Source: Methanobacteriota archaeon (GTDB lineage Archaea > Thermoplasmatota > Poseidoniia > Poseidoniales > Thalassarchaeaceae). From it: a stretch of 64,000 nt of DNA. Position numbers and translations under genes: made by a program. This document shows positions 1,516-64,000 of the stretch, in pieces. The notes under the pieces are model-generated. The model was not told the DNA's origin, searched no databases, and saw only the letters and a list, made by a program, of their open reading frames with translations. The first letter of the stretch is position 1. Each line of letters opens with the position of its first letter. Location of the stretch: the NCBI GenBank assembly GCA_018650285.1, contig JABIGF010000020.1, positions 124,001 through 188,000 of the forward strand. Direction: 5' to 3'.

Positions 1516-2757
1516 TCACCCCTTTACTCCTCCAGCAGAAAGACCCTCTATGAGGAATCGTTGGAAAATAATGAACAGTAATACTACAGGGATACTGACT
1601 AAAATCGATGCGGCAGCGAAGTCTCCCCAAGCTTGTCCCGTTGCTGAAATCATTGAAGCAAGCCCTACAGGTAGGGTGTACATATCGTTAGATGTGTTGA
1701 AAGTTAGAGCGAGTAAAAATTCATTCCATGCTGCTAAAAAGGAGAATAGTGCAGTGACAGCAACTGCTGGGAGAGAAAGCGGTAGGATGACTTTTCGGAA
1801 TACTTGAGGTTGAGTACAACCATCTAGTAGAGCCGCCTCTTCTAATTCACGTGGGACTGTATCAAAGAATCCTTTGAGCATCCATACACAAAGTGGCAGT
1901 GCTGTGACGGAATATGCTAAGACAAGGCCGAGCCAAGAGTTGAGAAGGCCAAGAGATTTCATGACAAGGAAATACGGTACTAGAATAATAATCCCAGGGA
2001 ACATTTGTACGAGTAAAAATGAGAACATAGCTGGTTCTCTGCCCTTGAATTTGAAACGGCTAAAGGCGTAACCAGCGGGTACTGCAAGCAAGAGGCCTAG
2101 AAGAGTTGTACCGATGCTGACAATGATTGAATTACGAAGCCAAATCCAAAACGCTTCGCCTCCAAGAACTTTGGTGAAGTGTTCACTTGAAAATTGGTCA
2201 AAGACATCACCACCAAGGATGTTACCTGGCGAGATAGCAACATCTAGAATCCAGATGACAGGAATAAGCACAATTGTAACTGCATGTAGCAATATGATGT
2301 GGACTCCTAGTGCGGAAAGTTTTGGTTTTAGTTTACTGTTGCGGGCCAATCCACGCTCTGAACCCTCAGTAGTCATAGTCCCTGATATCCATGCTGAAAC
2401 ATGTGGTGATGAAATCCACCAAAGTGCTAAGGCGGCTGGGATGAACAACCATGCTCTAGCCCAATAGTCAAAGACAACTAGTTTTGAAGTTGCAAGACGT
2501 AAAATTGCAGAGATCATTGCAATGCCAGCCACAAGGATAGAGAAATCACGTTTCGCTTTCGCTTCTTTTTCGGGCAGCATCATCAACAGGAATACGAGGA
2601 TTGCCACATCAAGAATTGAAAGCATTGCTCCATCTCCTGACCGTAACCATTCAAGAGGAATTATTGCCATATTTACACAAATAGCAGCAATAATCCAGGC
2701 TCTAAGTGTTGAGAGTTCTACTGGTAGGTAGTGCTTTTTGGCCAAATCCTCACTCAT
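1516..2757 (-). CDS. Sugar ABC transporter permease (MalG-like)
   Basis: EAA loop [46 protein letters not shown]; start [10 protein letters not shown] gives a 4-bp overlap with the upstream gene. Confidence 0.9.
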
Positions 2758-5426
2758 GAAACTGCCTCCGTTGCATTGGTTTGCTTCATATACATCCAAG
2801 AGAATGCCAACAGCATCATGAAAATTACAACAGACCAAGCCGCTGCGACTCCATACGCTCCATCTCTGAAAGCGATATCATAGACATAGGTGATGAGGAT
2901 ATCAGTTGAGCCGGGTTCGCCAAAATAGAGGTCAGGTCCGCCATCAGTCATCAGATAAATCACATTGAACATATTGAATGTCCAGATGAAACCAAGGAGC
3001 GAAAGGGGGACCATTGCGGATTTGAGGTTCGGTAAAGTGAGGTGGCGGAATTGTTGCCAACTGTTGACGCCATCCAAATCAGCCGCCTCATACATCTCTT
3101 GAGGTAGCGCTTGCAACGCCCCACTAAGTGACATCATCATGAAGGGTATTCCAAGCCAGATGTTGACAAGAATTACAAGAGCCTTAGCACCAGTTGGGTC
3201 GGCTAATAGATTTAGGTCAGTGCCAAGCAAGTCATTGATGAGCCCTGCAGGTTCAAGCATACCACGCCAAACTAGGACAGAAATGTATGAGGGGATTGCC
3301 CAAGGGAGTAAAAGTGCAGTACGGTAAGCAACTCTTCCTCTGAGGTGTTTGTTGTTCAGTAGAATTGCAAGTAACAAACCAAATCCAAGATGTGCTACTA
3401 CATTTACAATAGTCCAGACAAGTGTGAAGAGGGTGACGCGAAGGAAACCAGCAGCAGTAAATACATCAATGAAATTAGCAAATCCAATCCATACTTGTTC
3501 TCCCAAGTGGGTTTGATCCGCATCTGTGAAAGATAGCCAAATCCCGTAAAATACGGGATAAAATGTCAATACTGCTAGAGCCAATAATGCCGGTGCGATG
3601 TAGATGTGAGCAAGTTTTGAGCGGGCTTTCCCTGCTCTAGCATCTTGCCATCTCAAAAATGACAGCAAGGCAATAAGTGAGACGACAATTGCGCCGACAG
3701 CAAAAAGAATTGGAGATGTATTGGCTGCCGGCGGGACCACATCTGCAACATTTGATGAGAGATTAATCATCAGAAGCGTTGTTGAATCGTTGCTGCCATT
3801 CAATCCCAATCCAACAATCATTACTTGATGATTGAAGTTTGGAATCATGCCCGTCAGATTACAAGTCCATTCACTACCATCTGCAGAGCAATCTGCATTT
3901 TCAGGATAGGATGAGTGAGCAACCATGTCGATAAAAATTTGATATTCATCGTACCCATCTTCATCTATGAATGAAACTGTACTTGTTCGATATCCTTCAA
4001 CAAGTTCTGGCTCGGCAGCCTGTTGTGATTCAGAAAGTAGCGTTGCTAATTGTGTGTTTGCAGCACTCAATGCGGCCTCAGAAGTAGAAGTATCTGTGTA
4101 AACTTGTTCAAAGGCGGTCCCTAATGGCCCATAGACAAGAGCCATCCCTTGTGTGGTTTTTGCAGGTGTGCCCATTTGTGCTTGCTCTAGGAAACCTGAA
4201 ACTACCTTATCATCTGTGATTTGCAAGTTGGTGTATAGTTCTACAGATGTTGGCATTGTATAGGTGTCAAGTGCGAAATCACGTTGTACTGATGAAGAAG
4301 TTAGCCAAAGTGCCAAATCAGTCGCAGCTATTTTCTGGCTGCTTTGTTTTGTCACTGACCACCCTTTGTAGGTGACTAAAGGGGCTGCTCTGAGTCCTGT
4401 TTCATCAACGATTGGCAATAATTCCTGGCCGATATTCAATCTACTTGCTTCGTAAGTTGCCCAATTCCATGGCCCATCAACAATCATTGCTGCTTTGGAA
4501 GTAATGAATTGTGATTTCATTGACTCAATTTGAGTTCCAGTTGCTACAACCCCGTGTTCTTTTTCAAGGGAAAACAACCAATCAAGAGCGGCAGCAGAGC
4601 CATTTGAGTCTAATGTTGGTACACCGTTTTCATCAAACAGGTTGCCACCATAACCTTCCTGGAAAGGAAACCACCAGTATGCTACTTTGACAGGTAATGC
4701 AAGTCCTTGGATATCACCTTGCGTCAAATTTTCAGCGGCGAATAGCAGGTCAGAAGTCGTCCAATTTTCATTTGGATAATCCACGCCTTCGGCATCAAAT
4801 AGCGCTTTATTGTAAATCAAAGAGAGGCAATCTTGACTGGCAGGGAGGCCGAGTAGCGTATCTTTGTAATGCATAGCATTGAACGCCCGTGAGTCGTAAA
4901 CATCCTTTTGATTAGGCGTGAGATGGGGTGAAAGGTCCTCTAGTAGTGGGTATCCATCTACTCTGACTTCGCCAATCTTTCCAAGTTGGTCACTTGATAG
5001 ACGAACTAGATCAGGTGCTTCTCCGCCCTGTGCTGCAGTCATGAAAAGTTGGTCAGCATTGCCATAAGGAACCATTGTTGATACAACAGAGATGTGTGGG
5101 TTTGCAGCCTCAAAGTCAGAGATGGCATTGAGATACGTTTCCTCTTCTTTACTTTCAGATGCAAAAGTGTACCAGATTTCAAGAGTGATTTGTGTATCAC
5201 TTCTAGCAGTTGTTGGCAAAGGTTCAGTAATATTTCCTAGGTCTACAGTTGTTGATGATTCGTAAACTAGGTTGGAGGAAATAGCGGCAAGGCTTGCTAT
5301 AAGCAAGCCAATTGCAAATAATAGTGTCAAGCCGCGTTGCCTTTTCACAAATTGAGCATGTATGGGCATGGCATATTGCCATTGCTGAAAATCAACTGAT
5401 AGGACTTTGTTTGCGGTGGGCGGCAA
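2754..5426 (-). CDS. Fusion of extracellular sugar-binding protein (MalE-like) with ABC permease (MalF-like), 890 aa
   Basis: Single ORF: N-terminal TM, SBP region (ITLEIWYTFASESKEEETYLNAISDFEAANPHISV...AAMIVDGPWNWATYE), then permease with EAADLDGVNSWQQFRHLTLPNLKSAMVPLSLLGFIWTFNMFNVIYLMT. Confidence 0.9.
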   Translation of the reverse strand: MPPTANKVLSVDFQQWQYAMPIHAQFVKRQRGLTLLFAIGLLIASLAAISSNLVYESSTTVDLGNITEPLPTTARSDTQITLEIWYTFASESKEEETYLNAISDFEAANPHISVVSTMVPYGNADQLFMTAAQGGEAPDLVRLSSDQLGKIGEVRVDGYPLLEDLSPHLTPNQKDVYDSRAFNAMHYKDTLLGLPASQDCLSLIYNKALFDAEGVDYPNENWTTSDLLFAAENLTQGDIQGLALPVKVAYWWFPFQEGYGGNLFDENGVPTLDSNGSAAALDWLFSLEKEHGVVATGTQIESMKSQFITSKAAMIVDGPWNWATYEASRLNIGQELLPIVDETGLRAAPLVTYKGWSVTKQSSQKIAATDLALWLTSSSVQRDFALDTYTMPTSVELYTNLQITDDKVVSGFLEQAQMGTPAKTTQGMALVYGPLGTAFEQVYTDTSTSEAALSAANTQLATLLSESQQAAEPELVEGYRTSTVSFIDEDGYDEYQIFIDMVAHSSYPENADCSADGSEWTCNLTGMIPNFNHQVMIVGLGLNGSNDSTTLLMINLSSNVADVVPPAANTSPILFAVGAIVVSLIALLSFLRWQDARAGKARSKLAHIYIAPALLALAVLTFYPVFYGIWLSFTDADQTHLGEQVWIGFANFIDVFTAAGFLRVTLFTLVWTIVNVVAHLGFGLLLAILLNNKHLRGRVAYRTALLLPWAIPSYISVLVWRGMLEPAGLINDLLGTDLNLLADPTGAKALVILVNIWLGIPFMMMSLSGALQALPQEMYEAADLDGVNSWQQFRHLTLPNLKSAMVPLSLLGFIWTFNMFNVIYLMTDGGPDLYFGEPGSTDILITYVYDIAFRDGAYGVAAAWSVVIFMMLLAFSWMYMKQTNATEAVS

Positions 5427-57636: not shown

Positions 57637-59580
57637 GTGAAAGAGATGAGTCAGCGAACCCAACTCCAACAACAATTGGAGAAGAGCCGCCGTCTTCTTG
57701 CTGAGAGAAAGTCAGAAAGAGATTCAAAAGAAGGTGCAGAACAAGTTGTACATTCTTCACTTGGCCGTTTGATACGGGAAAGAAATATGCCAGCAGATAC
57801 GAATCCATTTGATGGCCCATTCCTTGCATCTACATCGGATGCGGTGCAGAAGAAAACAGGGACATTCGGGTCTATTGCTGCTGAAAGGATTCAGCGAATG
57901 AGGCAAGGTGCAGAAGCAACGGCTCCTATGATTGACCGTGATCAGGCAGGTGTCCCAATTTCTTTGGATACGCCCGCTTGGATATATTCAGAGGTTGTTG
58001 ACCCAGAGTCTAGCGATAGTGCGACCCCAGTTTGGAGAGATGTGCTTTCAAAACAGAGAGGTCATTCTCGGCCGAGCACTAGTGCTAGGGATGCGCATGC
58101 AGAACTAACCGATTCAACCCAGTCAAACGATTCATCCCAAATGGTGGCACTGGCTGAAGAAATTGCATTAGGGCGGCCAAAGTGGCCTAGTATTTTCATG
58201 CCAAACCCTCTTTATTCTTGGGGTAATTGGCAAGTTGGCCCAAATAACAGGATGGCTAGTACTGCGGCTAGAGAGATAATCACTTATCCAGCGGAGAGAG
58301 CAAATCCGCTCCTTATTTTGGGCAGTGATGGAGTTGGTAAGAGCCACTTGCTTCAAGCGTTAGGTTCCTCACTTTACACAAGATTGCCTGATAGAGAGAT
58401 TCGCATTATTGCGGGTGGTGATATCCCTGCTCAACTGCCAGATGATTGGGTGGATGCAATACAGGGATGCAGTGCGTTACTTGTGGAGGACATCCACCAG
58501 ATGGAGGGGGCGACTCAAGATGACCTTGGCAAGGTTGTAGATTATTGTTTAAATCTCGGCGTTCAAGTGGTACTAACATCTGATGGTGACTCAAATTTCT
58601 CCACTATTCTAAACAGTGCAATTAGTGGTGCTGTAGAGGTTAATATTTCCAATCCTGATGCGATGACAATTGTGTTATTTTTGCGCAATCGTGCATTAAT
58701 TCGTGGCATTTCACTCTCTGATGGACAATTGGGCGCCATTGCTGCCGCGGCTAGTGATTGGCGCAAGGCAGCATCTGGTTTTGAGCAGGTAGCTATAGCC
58801 ATTGAGGCTGGTGCTGAACCATTAGGTGTTTCAGATATTGAAACAATTCTTGGTGGTGAAGAATTACCGATGAGAGGCGATGATACTTTGGTTGCTTGGG
58901 ATAGCGAACAGACCGGTCAAAAAATTGTTCGAGAGGTGCTTGATGATGTATTACCCCGTGGCGCAATGCCAAATATTGACTTGGTTACTGAATTGGAATC
59001 AAAGGTAGATGACTATGTGGCACCTAATTTGATGCCTGAGTCTAGTCGAGATGCAGTGGATGCATTAATTGATAGACACCTTGGTAGAGAAAAGAGTGCC
59101 TTAGAAGAGGCAAGGTCTCGATTAGAAGATGAAGCAGCACCAACGAATTTAGAGGTGCCTAGAGCCGATTTACCTCATATTGACTTGATGAGTGACGGCT
59201 TCCTTGATAGGTTAGAATCAAGATTACAACGTCATCAAGATGAATTATTTTCATTACATAATGAAATGGAAACCATTGCAGGACAATTAGATGATGCCGA
59301 GCCTAAAGAATTGGTCGCAATGGCCGACAGAATGCTTGAAATTGAGCGCGAATTATCCCGCATTTCAAGATTAGATGCCGGTGAAGCACTCAAATCAAGA
59401 AAGAAGCCATCTCGTCCATACGAACCAGAAATTATTGAGGAATATGTCCCAGAAGGCGAGTGGGATATTGACGAGGAATCAATATCTGCTGATGACCTCC
59501 TTGAACCAAAAGCAGTTCTCCGTCCAATAAAGGTCTTGAAACCAATATTTTTGGATGACCGAGAAGGCGAAGAAGAATGA
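57637..59580 (+). CDS. DnaA-like AAA+ ATPase with coiled-coil C-terminus, no visible DnaA DNA-binding domain IV
   Basis: NPLYSWGNWQVGPNNRMASTAAREIITYPAERANPLLILGSDGVGKSHLLQALGSSL (Walker A), CSALLVEDIHQMEG (Walker B), VQVVLTSDGD (sensor I). Confidence 0.8.
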   Translation: MKEMSQRTQLQQQLEKSRRLLAERKSERDSKEGAEQVVHSSLGRLIRERNMPADTNPFDGPFLASTSDAVQKKTGTFGSIAAERIQRMRQGAEATAPMIDRDQAGVPISLDTPAWIYSEVVDPESSDSATPVWRDVLSKQRGHSRPSTSARDAHAELTDSTQSNDSSQMVALAEEIALGRPKWPSIFMPNPLYSWGNWQVGPNNRMASTAAREIITYPAERANPLLILGSDGVGKSHLLQALGSSLYTRLPDREIRIIAGGDIPAQLPDDWVDAIQGCSALLVEDIHQMEGATQDDLGKVVDYCLNLGVQVVLTSDGDSNFSTILNSAISGAVEVNISNPDAMTIVLFLRNRALIRGISLSDGQLGAIAAAASDWRKAASGFEQVAIAIEAGAEPLGVSDIETILGGEELPMRGDDTLVAWDSEQTGQKIVREVLDDVLPRGAMPNIDLVTELESKVDDYVAPNLMPESSRDAVDALIDRHLGREKSALEEARSRLEDEAAPTNLEVPRADLPHIDLMSDGFLDRLESRLQRHQDELFSLHNEMETIAGQLDDAEPKELVAMADRMLEIERELSRISRLDAGEALKSRKKPSRPYEPEIIEEYVPEGEWDIDEESISADDLLEPKAVLRPIKVLKPIFLDDREGEEE

Positions 59581-60056
59581 CGAAATGGAATAATCGATTT
59601 CGTCCACCTAAGGATGAGTGGTGGAGTAAGGGTATTGATTTCACCTGTCTTCCTGAATGTGGACGCTGTTGTGACGAACCTGGAGGGATTGTCTATCTTT
59701 CACGACAAGATGCCGAGAGAATTGCAGAACATCAAGAGATGAGTTTAGTCTCATGGCTCGAAAAATTTTGTCGGACTACTTACGACGGGAGATTTGTCTT
59801 AGAATCAAAACCTAGTGATGGGAGATGCATCTATCTAACTAGTGAGAAAGTTTGTACGATTTACGAAGTTAAGCCCGCTCAGTGTTCGGCCTTTCCTTTT
59901 TGGGGGGAGAATTTAGTCACAGACCGCGCATGGCAGAAAACCAAAACGATATGTCCCGGAATTGATCACCCTGATGCAATTATGATTGATGGTGATATGA
60001 TAAAACTGAAACTTGAGGCAGACAAAGCGGCTGAGAAAGGTTTCCGAATGGTGTGA
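59577..60056 (+). CDS. YkgJ-family Cys-rich (Zn/Fe-chelating, UPF0153-like) protein
   Basis: CLPECGRCCDEPGGIVYLSRQDAERIAEH...GRCIYLTSEKVCTIYEVKPAQCSAFPFW...CPGI; 4-bp overlap with the DnaA-like gene. Confidence 0.88.
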   Translation: MTKWNNRFRPPKDEWWSKGIDFTCLPECGRCCDEPGGIVYLSRQDAERIAEHQEMSLVSWLEKFCRTTYDGRFVLESKPSDGRCIYLTSEKVCTIYEVKPAQCSAFPFWGENLVTDRAWQKTKTICPGIDHPDAIMIDGDMIKLKLEADKAAEKGFRMV

Positions 60057-60177: not shown

Positions 60178-61356
60178 ATGAGTGATTCCGAAGAAGAGCC
60201 AACAATCTTTGAAGTGAAGGCGGGTCATCTTGATACAGGACTTCGTGGAATACCTGTTGGAACTTGTCGAACATCATTCGTTGACCCGATGAAAGGAGTC
60301 CACTATGTTGGTTATCCTGTTGGCGATTTAGCAGATATGGACCCAGAAGACGTCATCTTTTTGTTGTTTGAGAAAAGATTGCCAAATCGTCATGAATCTC
60401 AAAATTTCCGCAAAGATTTGGCTGAGCGTGCTGAAGAAATGCCGGCAGGTGCACTACGTGTGCTTGAGGCATTGACTCCTGGTAGCGGCCATCCAATGGA
60501 TTGGTTGGCACTTGGTATCCAAGCGCTTGGAATAGCAGAAACTACTGGTGATTTCAAAGAAGACGGTCTTAATTTAATTGCTAGAATGCCAGAACTAATG
60601 GCAACAATATTCCTACTTCGTGGTGGCCATGGAATCCCTGAATCAGGTAGTAACCCCCGTTTAGGTTTAGTTGAGAATTTTGTTCATTTAATGGATCTAG
60701 AAGAAGACAAGGCAGCCAAGATGACCAAGGTGTTGCGAACTTTCCTTGTTCTTCACATGGACCACGGTGGGGGCAATTTGTCTACCTTTTCAGGTAAATG
60801 TGTAGCTAGTGGAAAAGCCAATCTATACGCCTCAATTGCTAGTGCGATGAACGCTCTATCAGGTCCTCTTCATGGTAGAGCAAATCAGGCTTGTCTTGAA
60901 TTTGTTCAACGAATCGGCTCAAGTGACCCAGATAAAGTGGAAAAATTTGTCCGCGGAGAATTGGCAGCAAAAAGGCCGGTTTATGGATTTGGCCATGCTG
61001 TCTTGAGGGCTGAAGATCCTCGTGCAGCAGCGCAGATAATTTTGGGCGAGGAGGTATGCCCCGATGATTCAAATTTCAAGATAGTTAAGACGTTGAGAAA
61101 AGTTGCCCCAAAGGTGTTGGGTGAGAATCCAAAGATCAGCAATCCTTTCGCAAATGTTGACGTGGCATCAGGGTCATTATTGCATGCAGTTGGGTTTAGA
61201 AAACCAGAGTATTACACTACCTTCTTTGGTTGGGCAAGAGTTGCGGGAATCAGTGCCCAAATAATTGATGAGAGAAAGGCTCGTGGTGGACGTGGTGTCC
61301 CAATTTACCGCCCAAAATACATTGGTAAAGACCAACCATTACAACGATTGAATTAA
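60178..61356 (+). CDS. gltA: Citrate synthase
   Basis: GLRGIPVGTCRTSFVDPMKGVHYVGYPVGDLA, LHMDHGGGNLSTFSGKCVASGKANLYASIASAMNALSGPLHGRANQACLEFV, VYGFGHAVLRAEDPRA; good SD AAGGAGGT upstream at ~60161. Confidence 0.92.
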   Translation: MSDSEEEPTIFEVKAGHLDTGLRGIPVGTCRTSFVDPMKGVHYVGYPVGDLADMDPEDVIFLLFEKRLPNRHESQNFRKDLAERAEEMPAGALRVLEALTPGSGHPMDWLALGIQALGIAETTGDFKEDGLNLIARMPELMATIFLLRGGHGIPESGSNPRLGLVENFVHLMDLEEDKAAKMTKVLRTFLVLHMDHGGGNLSTFSGKCVASGKANLYASIASAMNALSGPLHGRANQACLEFVQRIGSSDPDKVEKFVRGELAAKRPVYGFGHAVLRAEDPRAAAQIILGEEVCPDDSNFKIVKTLRKVAPKVLGENPKISNPFANVDVASGSLLHAVGFRKPEYYTTFFGWARVAGISAQIIDERKARGGRGVPIYRPKYIGKDQPLQRLN

Positions 61357-61380: not shown

Positions 61381-62439
61381 TCAATCAAAATCTAACTGGC
61401 TAGTTTTTCCAGTCCCTCGATGACCAATAATTCTTGGTACTTCCCAAGGGATTTGATTGTCATTGCTTGATGCCATCAATTCATCAATAGAGCGACGCCA
61501 CTTCCATTGTTTCCGTTGCATTGATAAGAAGTCTTTTCGATTTTCAATAGTCATTTCTCTCCAAGGAATCTGTTGACCTGCAACTATTGGTTCGCTAGCT
61601 GGCCGAGTATTACGTGGTGAACCATCTGGGAGGTGAGTAATTTCGGTTGAGGCATCATCTGTAAGTGCTGTCAAACCAGCATCAAGAACCAATCTCTCTT
61701 GAGATAGTTTGACCGGCCATACAAAGGCAGGAAAGCCCCTTCTGGTGTTTGTCAATTTTGTAAGCGCCTTTCCTTTTAATCCAACAGTTCTGCCTAGTGT
61801 CAGGTGTCTAGTATACCCTGTCAGATATTCTAGGGCACAAGGAATCATTGGCGCACCCCTATTTTGGTGAAATCTCATTGATCGTGGTAACGAATTAGCG
61901 ATAAAAGAAGGTGTAGCGACCACTTTCTTGAATTTTCCTTTACCCCATTCACGCAGATTGGGCATGAGACGAGCGCATGGGTGTTTACACCCATCTTGTT
62001 TAACAGCGGAAAGAAATTTTTTGTCAAATGCATATAGAACAGTAGTGCCATCAGGCAACTCAAATTCGGAAATAGATTCATCAACTTGACGTATCATTTT
62101 AGCCAAATATTTGACTCTTTCTTTTCCATCAGTCCAACCACCTCCTACACCACTACTCGGATGTGGAGACTTCAATTCAATACAGACTGTTTTTCCTGAT
62201 TCTTGCCAAGGGTTAACAAAATCAGGTTTTGAAAGTAGGTCATCAAATCTATCTGCACAAGTTGCTAATTCATCACTTGACAAATTTTCAACAAATTTAC
62301 CCTCTGGTGTAGTGTTGTCATGACGCAACATCAAGACATCATCGCTTGAAAGACGCAAATCAAATTCAACACCATCAAAATAGTTGATGCCTAAAGTTAG
62401 GGCTTCAAGTGAATTTTGTCTCGGTTGTATCCAACTCAA
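61381..62439 (-). CDS. Glycerophosphodiester phosphodiesterase-like protein, apparently circularly permuted
   Basis: N-terminus SWIQPRQNSLEALTLGINYFDGVEFDLRLSSDDVLMLRHDNT, internal TVCIELKSPH, C-terminus VPRIIGHRGTGKTSQLDFD-stop; TTG start with AGGAGGGG upstream. Confidence 0.78.
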   Translation of the reverse strand: MSWIQPRQNSLEALTLGINYFDGVEFDLRLSSDDVLMLRHDNTTPEGKFVENLSSDELATCADRFDDLLSKPDFVNPWQESGKTVCIELKSPHPSSGVGGGWTDGKERVKYLAKMIRQVDESISEFELPDGTTVLYAFDKKFLSAVKQDGCKHPCARLMPNLREWGKGKFKKVVATPSFIANSLPRSMRFHQNRGAPMIPCALEYLTGYTRHLTLGRTVGLKGKALTKLTNTRRGFPAFVWPVKLSQERLVLDAGLTALTDDASTEITHLPDGSPRNTRPASEPIVAGQQIPWREMTIENRKDFLSMQRKQWKWRRSIDELMASSNDNQIPWEVPRIIGHRGTGKTSQLDFD

Positions 62440-62544
62440 GCCTTCCCCTCCTGTTCATCCGTTGTAGGCACTACACTTGAACCCAAAGGCAGGATATCTG
62501 ATGCAGGTGGAACACTCATAGCCCGTCTGTGGTTTCGGTAACAC

Positions 62545-64000
62545 ATGAGCGAGGGTGACACAGGTTCTGAAACTGGCCAAGAAGTAATAGAAAATATCGC
62601 GTCCGTTGAATTAAAAGGCAGCAAATCAAATGCTGAACAGGTACGCGGATACTGCATGTATGATTGGGCTAAATCAGCATTTGAGACAAGCGTTACAACC
62701 GCCATCCTTCCAGCATGGTTTGCTTATCTTTTCTTGGAAGCAAATGGAATTTCAATCAATACTATGTTTGGCGAAATGTCTTCTGATACATTCTGGGCAT
62801 GGGCTGTTACTGGCTCAGCGATGATGATTGCATTAGTTAGCCCTGGTTTTGGTGTCATTGCCGATAGAACTAGAATCAAGATGAAGATGTTAAAATATCT
62901 CACTTGGTTAGGCGCTGGTTCGACATTTTTGTTGGCATTAGCGCCACTATTTCCAATATCTATTCAATGGATTTGGTTGTTTATTCTATTCCTTACCGCA
63001 AATCTTGGATTGAACGGTGCTGGTGTATTCTACAATGCATTACTTCCTCATCAAGGACCTGATGACGAAATGGACAGCATTTCAAACAAAGCTTTCGCAT
63101 ACGGTTATCTCGGCGGCGGGCTCCTTCTCGTATTCCATTTGGCTCTTGTGATGGGTGTTTCAGGCACTTGGGTAATTCCCTTTGCAATGGCTTCATCTGG
63201 TGCTTGGTGGTATGGTTTTGCTCTTTGGACACTTGCTAAAGTGCCCGAACCTGATATTGAAAACGAAGTCAATGACCTTGACATTAAGAGTGCAATTAAA
63301 CTTGCAAAATCCGAATTAATCAAGACATTCAAAGAATGGCGCTCCTTCAGAACTCTTTTCTTCTATATGCTAGCATACTTCTTCTTTATTGATGGGATTA
63401 ATTCAGTTACAGCATTGGCTGGTGTATACGGAATTGCAGTTCTTGGTTTGTCAATTACAGATTTGATTATGACGATTGTTGTCATTCAGTTCGTTGCATT
63501 CCCTGCCGCATTCTTCTTCACTTGGTTGGCTAAAATGACTTCAACAAAGAAGGCGTTAACTGTTGCTTTGTCAGCATGGTGCCTAGTGATTGTTGGTGCG
63601 CTTTCATTTGCTCCACTTGAACTTGCAAACCACGAAGAATATGACTTCCAGTTTGATTGGGATGAAGACCACTATGAAGTAAGAATGCTTGATCACGAAG
63701 CGCTTGGAGATGGTGATGCTGACCGCGCTCTAGATGATTCATTCTCGCATATATTACCTACCGAAGAGGATGGTGTCGGTAATGCAACTTCTCAAGAGGT
63801 TTCACAATTCCTAGCTTTACTTGACGATTCGCGTTTTGCTGCATCTGTCAATGGAAGTAGCCTCAATGGTACAATAGCTCTTGGTATAGACCATCCAACA
63901 AATCTTGGAGATGGGAAATTAGATTCAATATCAATTGCTGCACGAGATAATGTATGGGCTCCTCTTGGACTTAGTGTGACTATGCAATTCCTTCTATTAG
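62545..64000 (+). CDS. MFS transporter, UMF1/Atg22-like, partial (runs off the window)
   Basis: VRGYCMYDWAKSAFETSVTTAILPAWFAYLF, ALVSPGFGVIADRTRIKMKMLKYLTWLG, FYNALLPHQGPDDEMDSISNKAFAYGYLGGGLLLVFHL; open to 64000. Confidence 0.85.
   Translation, partial: MSEGDTGSETGQEVIENIASVELKGSKSNAEQVRGYCMYDWAKSAFETSVTTAILPAWFAYLFLEANGISINTMFGEMSSDTFWAWAVTGSAMMIALVSPGFGVIADRTRIKMKMLKYLTWLGAGSTFLLALAPLFPISIQWIWLFILFLTANLGLNGAGVFYNALLPHQGPDDEMDSISNKAFAYGYLGGGLLLVFHLALVMGVSGTWVIPFAMASSGAWWYGFALWTLAKVPEPDIENEVNDLDIKSAIKLAKSELIKTFKEWRSFRTLFFYMLAYFFFIDGINSVTALAGVYGIAVLGLSITDLIMTIVVIQFVAFPAAFFFTWLAKMTSTKKALTVALSAWCLVIVGALSFAPLELANHEEYDFQFDWDEDHYEVRMLDHEALGDGDADRALDDSFSHILPTEEDGVGNATSQEVSQFLALLDDSRFAASVNGSSLNGTIALGIDHPTNLGDGKLDSISIAARDNVWAPLGLSVTMQFLLL

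Follow-up and report, generated by a model that had tools for sequence, protein, structure and literature searches.

A probable circularly permuted glycerophosphodiester phosphodiesterase in the archaeal order Poseidoniales

Glycerophosphodiester phosphodiesterases (GDPDs) of Pfam family PF03009, among them UgpQ, ttGDPD (2pz0), and a Thermococcus protein (4oec), have the same barrel fold and the same ENT, ExD, HD, ExK, Trp, and HRG residues as the archaeal protein described here. In the lysophospholipase D-type enzyme LyPls-PLD, residues H46, E73, D75, H88, E175, F211, and W282 are highly conserved with ttGDPD, in which E44, D46, and E119 are calcium ligands, according to the available excerpts of PMC5095149. 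For LpgD, the excerpts of PMC10404611 describe a hydrolysis that passes through a cyclic phosphate, for which Glu78 and His93 are required and which His51 accelerates without being essential.

The window analyzed here is a stretch of 64,000 nucleotides from a genome of the Thalassarchaeaceae, which the NCBI taxonomy places within the order Poseidoniales, class Poseidoniia, phylum Thermoplasmatota. A sequence-only reading of the window had proposed that one of its genes encodes a GDPD-type protein with a circular permutation, and motif order, conservation, and profile fit all support that proposal. We consider it very likely that the protein is a naturally circularly permuted GDPD that has become fixed in the Poseidoniales. 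The open reading frame carries its motifs in the order PRQNS (residue 6), GVEFD (23), LRHD (38), IELK (87), and IIGHRG (337), and the positions of the relevant elements in the window are as follows.

61381..62439, minus strand: putative circularly permuted GDPD gene, a 352-aa open reading frame with a TTG start
62445..62451, minus strand: ribosome-binding-site-like GGAGGGG, 5 bp before the TTG; the sequence is as read, the function putative
62413..62415, minus strand: Asn9 of the ENT/QNS motif, the first invariant residue of the protein (122/122)
62359..62367, minus strand: Glu25-x-Asp27 (barrel strand 2), putative metal ligands (invariant in 122/122)
62317..62322, minus strand: His40-Asp41, second catalytic histidine by motif (His in 122/122)
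62170..62178, minus strand: Glu88-x-Lys90 (barrel strand 3), putative third metal ligand (invariant in 122/122)
62026..62028, minus strand: Phe138, directly after barrel strand 4, aligned with the SF motif of canonical GDPDs (122/122)
61717..61719, minus strand: Trp241 on barrel strand 7 (invariant in 122/122)
61432..61656, minus strand: linker, residues 262 to 336, between barrel strand 8 and the relocated strand 1
61420..61431, minus strand: relocated barrel strand 1, residues 337 to 340 (IIGH), a strand in both models
61414..61422, minus strand: His340-Arg341-Gly342, the HRG motif near the C terminus, invariant in sequences that reach it

The sequence-only reading had placed the start of the protein exactly at PRQNS and the HRG strand as the last element before the stop. 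The protein does start within the ENT segment and the HRG strand does lie close to the stop codon, but the N terminus reads MSWIQPRQNS and ten more residues (GTGKTSQLDFD) follow the C-terminal strand. In the arrangement that we propose, the chain would begin in the loop that follows canonical strand 1 (W-x-Q-P-x-E-N-S/T), run through strands 2 to 8, cross a linker of about 75 residues that is specific to the clade, and end with a terminal strand 1 that carries His-Arg-Gly. Set between strands 8 and 2, this last strand would complete the barrel and thereby bring His340 and Arg341 to the metal site of Glu25, Asp27, and Glu88, opposite His40. The linker, which exceeds the C-terminal ends of the aligned canonical proteins, contains ten invariant or near-invariant residues (G273, R276, P280, P284, W293, E295, W314, P331, W332, and R336).

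The Pfam GDPD profile (PF03009) matches the window protein in its native order, residues 9 to 70 being aligned with profile positions 11 to 70 (26 bits against a cut-off of 23.6), and this match omits the HRG positions. In NCBIfam, only PRK09454.1 was matched, at 22 bits and thus far below its cut-off of 264. Since the Pfam match is confined to roughly the N-terminal 60 residues and leaves out the HRG histidine, annotation may present proteins of this kind as truncated or inactive. When the tail was put in front of the rest of the protein, the Pfam match reached profile position 1 in all five of the proteins examined in this way and the score rose by 2.6 to 5.8 bits, whereas a shuffled tail added 0.3 bits to the score of the window protein and did not reach position 1. 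Rotation also improved the best-domain score of all 121 homologues, out of 121, against a profile based on ten canonical GDPDs from the phylum (mean, +2.93 bits; mean with a shuffled tail, +0.19 bits), which bears out the earlier suggestion that joining the C terminus to the N terminus recreates the canonical order. The shortness of the tail keeps these gains small, and a scan of rotation points gave a plateau, as is expected of a local-alignment score, that does not pinpoint the cut. The joined sequence WEVPRIIGHRGTGKT/WIQPRQNS aligns with WPYPRIVAHRGGGK/LAPENT of Escherichia coli UgpQ, and in a phmmer search the tail was matched to the N terminus of 2otd_A as a second, weak domain whose 3.9 bits are not significant alone.

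AlphaFold2 models were obtained for the window protein (mean pLDDT, 93.5; pTM, 0.92) and for L032, a homologue from the other family of the order (mean pLDDT, 93.9; pTM, 0.93). In each model, seven strands correspond to strands 2 to 8 of the canonical barrel, and the final strand lies at IGH (residues 337 to 340; residues 367 to 369 in L032). The best Foldseek matches of the fold were GDPDs (1vd6; E value, 2.5e-8), and VIA-align superposed the window model on 3l12_A with a Z score of 16.3 (228 residues, 3.2 Å) and the L032 model with a Z score of 18.4 (237 residues, 3.5 Å). The sequential alignments with GDPDs extend from model residue 2 to 4 to mostly about residue 270 to 305, and the residues after about 293 to 304 are barely covered by the fold searches. 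The alignment with 2otd_A begins at residue 17 of that chain, beyond its HRG (sequence positions 12 to 14), as would be expected if strand 1 has moved. In the models, residues 4 to 284 have the GDPD fold and IGH is predicted as a C-terminal strand; the position of that strand in the barrel and the side-chain geometry of His340 are inferred. Mean-field covariation (122 sequences; Neff, 79) placed strand 1-strand 8 at the top of the 28 strand pairs (2.77), with strand 1-strand 2 not raised (1.46); because the top single pairs look phylogenetic, this offers at best weak support for the position of the strand. The linker of about 75 residues is long enough that it could reach another chain, and the C-terminal strand might then complete the barrel of a neighboring subunit, in an enzyme that works only as an oligomer. 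This form of domain swapping seems improbable to us, as the strand block was predicted with high confidence in monomer models that had no partner (mean pLDDT of 97 for residues 331 to 340 of the window protein, with only 76 for residues 341 to 350, and of 98 for residues 361 to 370 of L032).

The residues expected at a GDPD active site are conserved across the permuted proteins. N9, E25, D27, H40, E88, K90, F138, W241, and D261 are invariant in all 122 aligned sequences, and among the sequences that reach the C-terminal positions, H340 is invariant in 121 of 121 and R341 and G342 are invariant in 120 of 120. Taken in order and matched by motif, the seven LyPls-PLD residues probably correspond to H340, E25, D27, H40, E88, F138, and W241, so that all seven published GDPD active-site residues are invariant, the C-terminal histidine included. 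By the same criterion E25 and D27 are E73 and D75 of LyPls-PLD and E44 and D46 of ttGDPD (excerpts of PMC5095149). The spacing of 15 residues between E25 and H40 equals that between E73 and H88 of LyPls-PLD (excerpts of PMC5095149) and that between Glu78 and His93 of LpgD (excerpts of PMC10404611). Judging from these motifs, the permuted GDPD is most likely an active, metal-dependent phosphodiesterase. Its substrate could be a glycerophosphodiester or the head-group ester of a lysophospholipid, which would be hydrolyzed by a two-histidine, metal-dependent route, and by analogy with what the excerpts of PMC10404611 describe for LpgD, that route might pass through a cyclic phosphate.

It is also conceivable that the protein is a GDPD-related barrel whose C-terminal HRG segment is no longer catalytic and has a structural role or serves a different reaction. 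Two observations would be in keeping with this: His51 of LpgD, which by motif we take as the HRG histidine, is rate accelerating rather than essential (excerpts of PMC10404611), and one genome has a homologue, L047, from which the tail has been lost. Nevertheless, the histidine, arginine, and glycine do not vary wherever the segment is present, and neither do the metal-ligand positions or the second histidine; we regard a noncatalytic segment as slightly less probable again than domain swapping.

The permuted order is shared throughout the Poseidoniales. A protein search found relatives of the window protein in 54 of 59 genomes of the same genus, family, and order, representing 18 of 18 genera, and when 389 genomes of the phylum were searched with a profile, the matches were strong (E value of 3.9e-69 or better) in 121 of 126 Poseidoniales and only weak (E value of 1.9e-10 or worse) in 55 genomes beyond the order. 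The family sample comprised 171 loci with 126 distinct sequences, L189 and L190, fragments from one genome, being counted separately. The pattern [GAC][HN]RGxG stands 8 to 19 residues before the stop in 123 of these 126, including L004, from the genus of the window, which has CHRG in place of GHRG. It is because HRG is C-terminal in so many homologues that we regard the protein as a permuted variant rather than as an ordinary PF03009 member, and for the same reason the order is not an accident of the copy in the window. Two of the remaining three sequences (L026 and L189) are cut by contig ends, and the third, L047, is a complete open reading frame without the tail. This last gene (genome G013, 1176-2177) ends beside citrate synthase and lacks the final 40 or so residues, HRG among them; it may have lost the catalytic strand naturally, or the gene may be in decay. 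Seven genomes lacked a strong match. Four of them also lack citrate synthase, and in the other three citrate synthase is cut at a contig end on the side facing the permuted gene; absence is thus explained by assembly, and whole-gene loss is not shown. A pattern scan of viral contigs gave 66 matches, none of them a relative of the permuted GDPD.

The draft state of the window genome (28 contigs) and the TTG start codon could be taken to mean that a normal N-terminal HRG has been hidden by a frameshift, a misassembly, or a wrong start and that the C-terminal HRG is unrelated. The TTG is believable as a start because GGAGGGG lies 5 bp before it, and the in-frame TGA that the sequence-only reading had placed 18 bp upstream is present at 62455-62457. 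That reading had also excluded a hidden N-terminal HRG strand in this frame and had named homologues with an additional N-terminal HRG and a sequencing error in this copy as one case that would overturn the permutation; it had asked as well for homologues of the same order. No HRG is encoded in the three frames just upstream of the open reading frame, homologues with the same order are present in both families of Poseidoniales, and none of the 126 distinct homologues has a genuine N-terminal HRG. The only upstream HRG-like string is a chance NRG in a nonhomologous extension of L041. The order is moreover common to distinct sequences from many genomes, public assemblies (L055 to L059) included. 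A hidden N-terminal HRG, frameshift, or wrong start is ruled out by the upstream frames together with the homologues, and we assign an artifact of any of these kinds a negligible probability.

The Walker A pattern is GxxxxGK[ST], and the string GHRGxGKT matches it, but a nucleotide-binding P-loop is hardly credible here and the reading of GHRGTGKT as such was rejected on the Pfam match, GDPD being the sole family matched, and on the variability of position 345, which is lysine in only 96 of 122 sequences (elsewhere R, E, S, D, V, or others), while strand 1 of UgpQ itself contains HRGGGK and the predicted fold is the GDPD barrel. The coincidental Walker A fit of GHRGxGKT, at 61402-61425 of the window and in homologues, could mislead motif-based annotation.

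The comparison outside the Poseidoniales covered the rest of the phylum, and the scan of genome contigs used patterns of close relatives. One protein each was read from 8 of the 55 genomes with weak matches, two of them (L120 and L121, from two of five such genomes) from the other family of the class and six (L122 to L126 and L139) from elsewhere in the phylum. All eight have the canonical order, with HRG or HKG preceding the ENT-type motif. On the basis of these sequences, the circular permutation probably had a single origin in the stem of the Poseidoniales. Of the 53 genomes with any PF03009 match, 40 have the permuted gene as their only one and 12 have a second match; in G014, which also lacks citrate synthase, the only PF03009 match is canonical. 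Many genomes of the family of the window also encode a second GDPD-like protein, about 195 aa long (L132 to L138 and L076), which has GHRLGxSGxxxEN instead of HRG and seems to end before a full barrel.

The gene neighborhood was compared across 64 loci, a set that includes five public duplicates of others. The neighbors in the window are as follows.

60178..61356, plus strand: citrate synthase (PF00285), convergent neighbor; this arrangement is found in 59/64 loci
62545..63999, plus strand: ATG22-like MFS transporter (PF11700), divergent neighbor that runs off the window; this arrangement is found in 39/64 loci

In 17 loci, within part of the second family, the divergent neighbor is instead a relative of PAP2-superfamily membrane proteins (PF01569; 34.8 bits in L032, where it lies at 2613-4001; the other 16 loci carry its counterparts). 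The PAP2 neighbor is consistent with a role in lipid head-group turnover, adjacency being no proof of such a role. One may speculate that the permutation served the ancestor of the Poseidoniales as a functional innovation: substrate access would have been reshaped by the added linker and by the opening of the chain at its catalytic mouth, and what is the only GDPD of most members would have become an enzyme for the cell's own lysophospholipids, coupled to the divergent PAP2-type membrane protein or ATG22-like transporter; we think this unlikely as it stands. Past citrate synthase, a gene for a CxxCxxCC-domain protein (59577-60056 in the window) lies on the strand opposite the GDPD gene, and in 12 other loci it lies on the same strand, perhaps through a local inversion. 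Positions 57637-59580 of the window encode a 647-aa archaeal protein that matches the ATPase domain of bacterial DnaA (PF00308; E value, 5e-16).

A circular permutation of a TIM barrel is already known, and we found no permuted GDPD or permuted PLC-like phosphodiesterase in print in the open-license literature. The excerpts of PMC3482391 describe no permuted GDPD, and a literature search for structures of archaeal glycerophosphodiesterases gave no relevant paper among the matches listed. The permuted order appears to be fixed across an order of marine archaea, and the neighboring family of the same class has canonical proteins. Because of these, the origin of the permutation can be located on the tree, and it is open to laboratory testing.

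To our knowledge, it is uncommon for a natural circular permutation to relocate a catalytic element of a TIM barrel. Compared with canonical members of PF03009, the Poseidoniales protein has strand 1 and its HRG at the C terminus, a linker of about 75 residues, and termini in the loop between strand 1 and helix 1. The lysophospholipase D-type enzymes LpgD (8ghh) and LyPls-PLD (7ym0) have, by motif, the same two-histidine metal site and match its fold with Z scores of 13.0 to 15.8, but unlike the archaeal protein they have the canonical order. The short GDPD-like paralogues (L132 to L138 and L076) have ENT, ExD, HD, and ExK in common with the permuted GDPD and differ from it in their canonical order, their length of about 195 aa, and GHRLG in place of HRG. 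More distant parallels are found in other superfamilies. The GH70 glucansucrases, which are glycoside hydrolases, are reportedly related to GH13 by a circular permutation of the catalytic barrel within a known enzyme clan. According to the excerpts of PMC2213659, transaldolase and the class I aldolases are likewise related by a natural circular permutation of a TIM barrel. Two beta/alpha units have been shifted in that case, whereas a single strand would have moved in the GDPD of the Poseidoniales.
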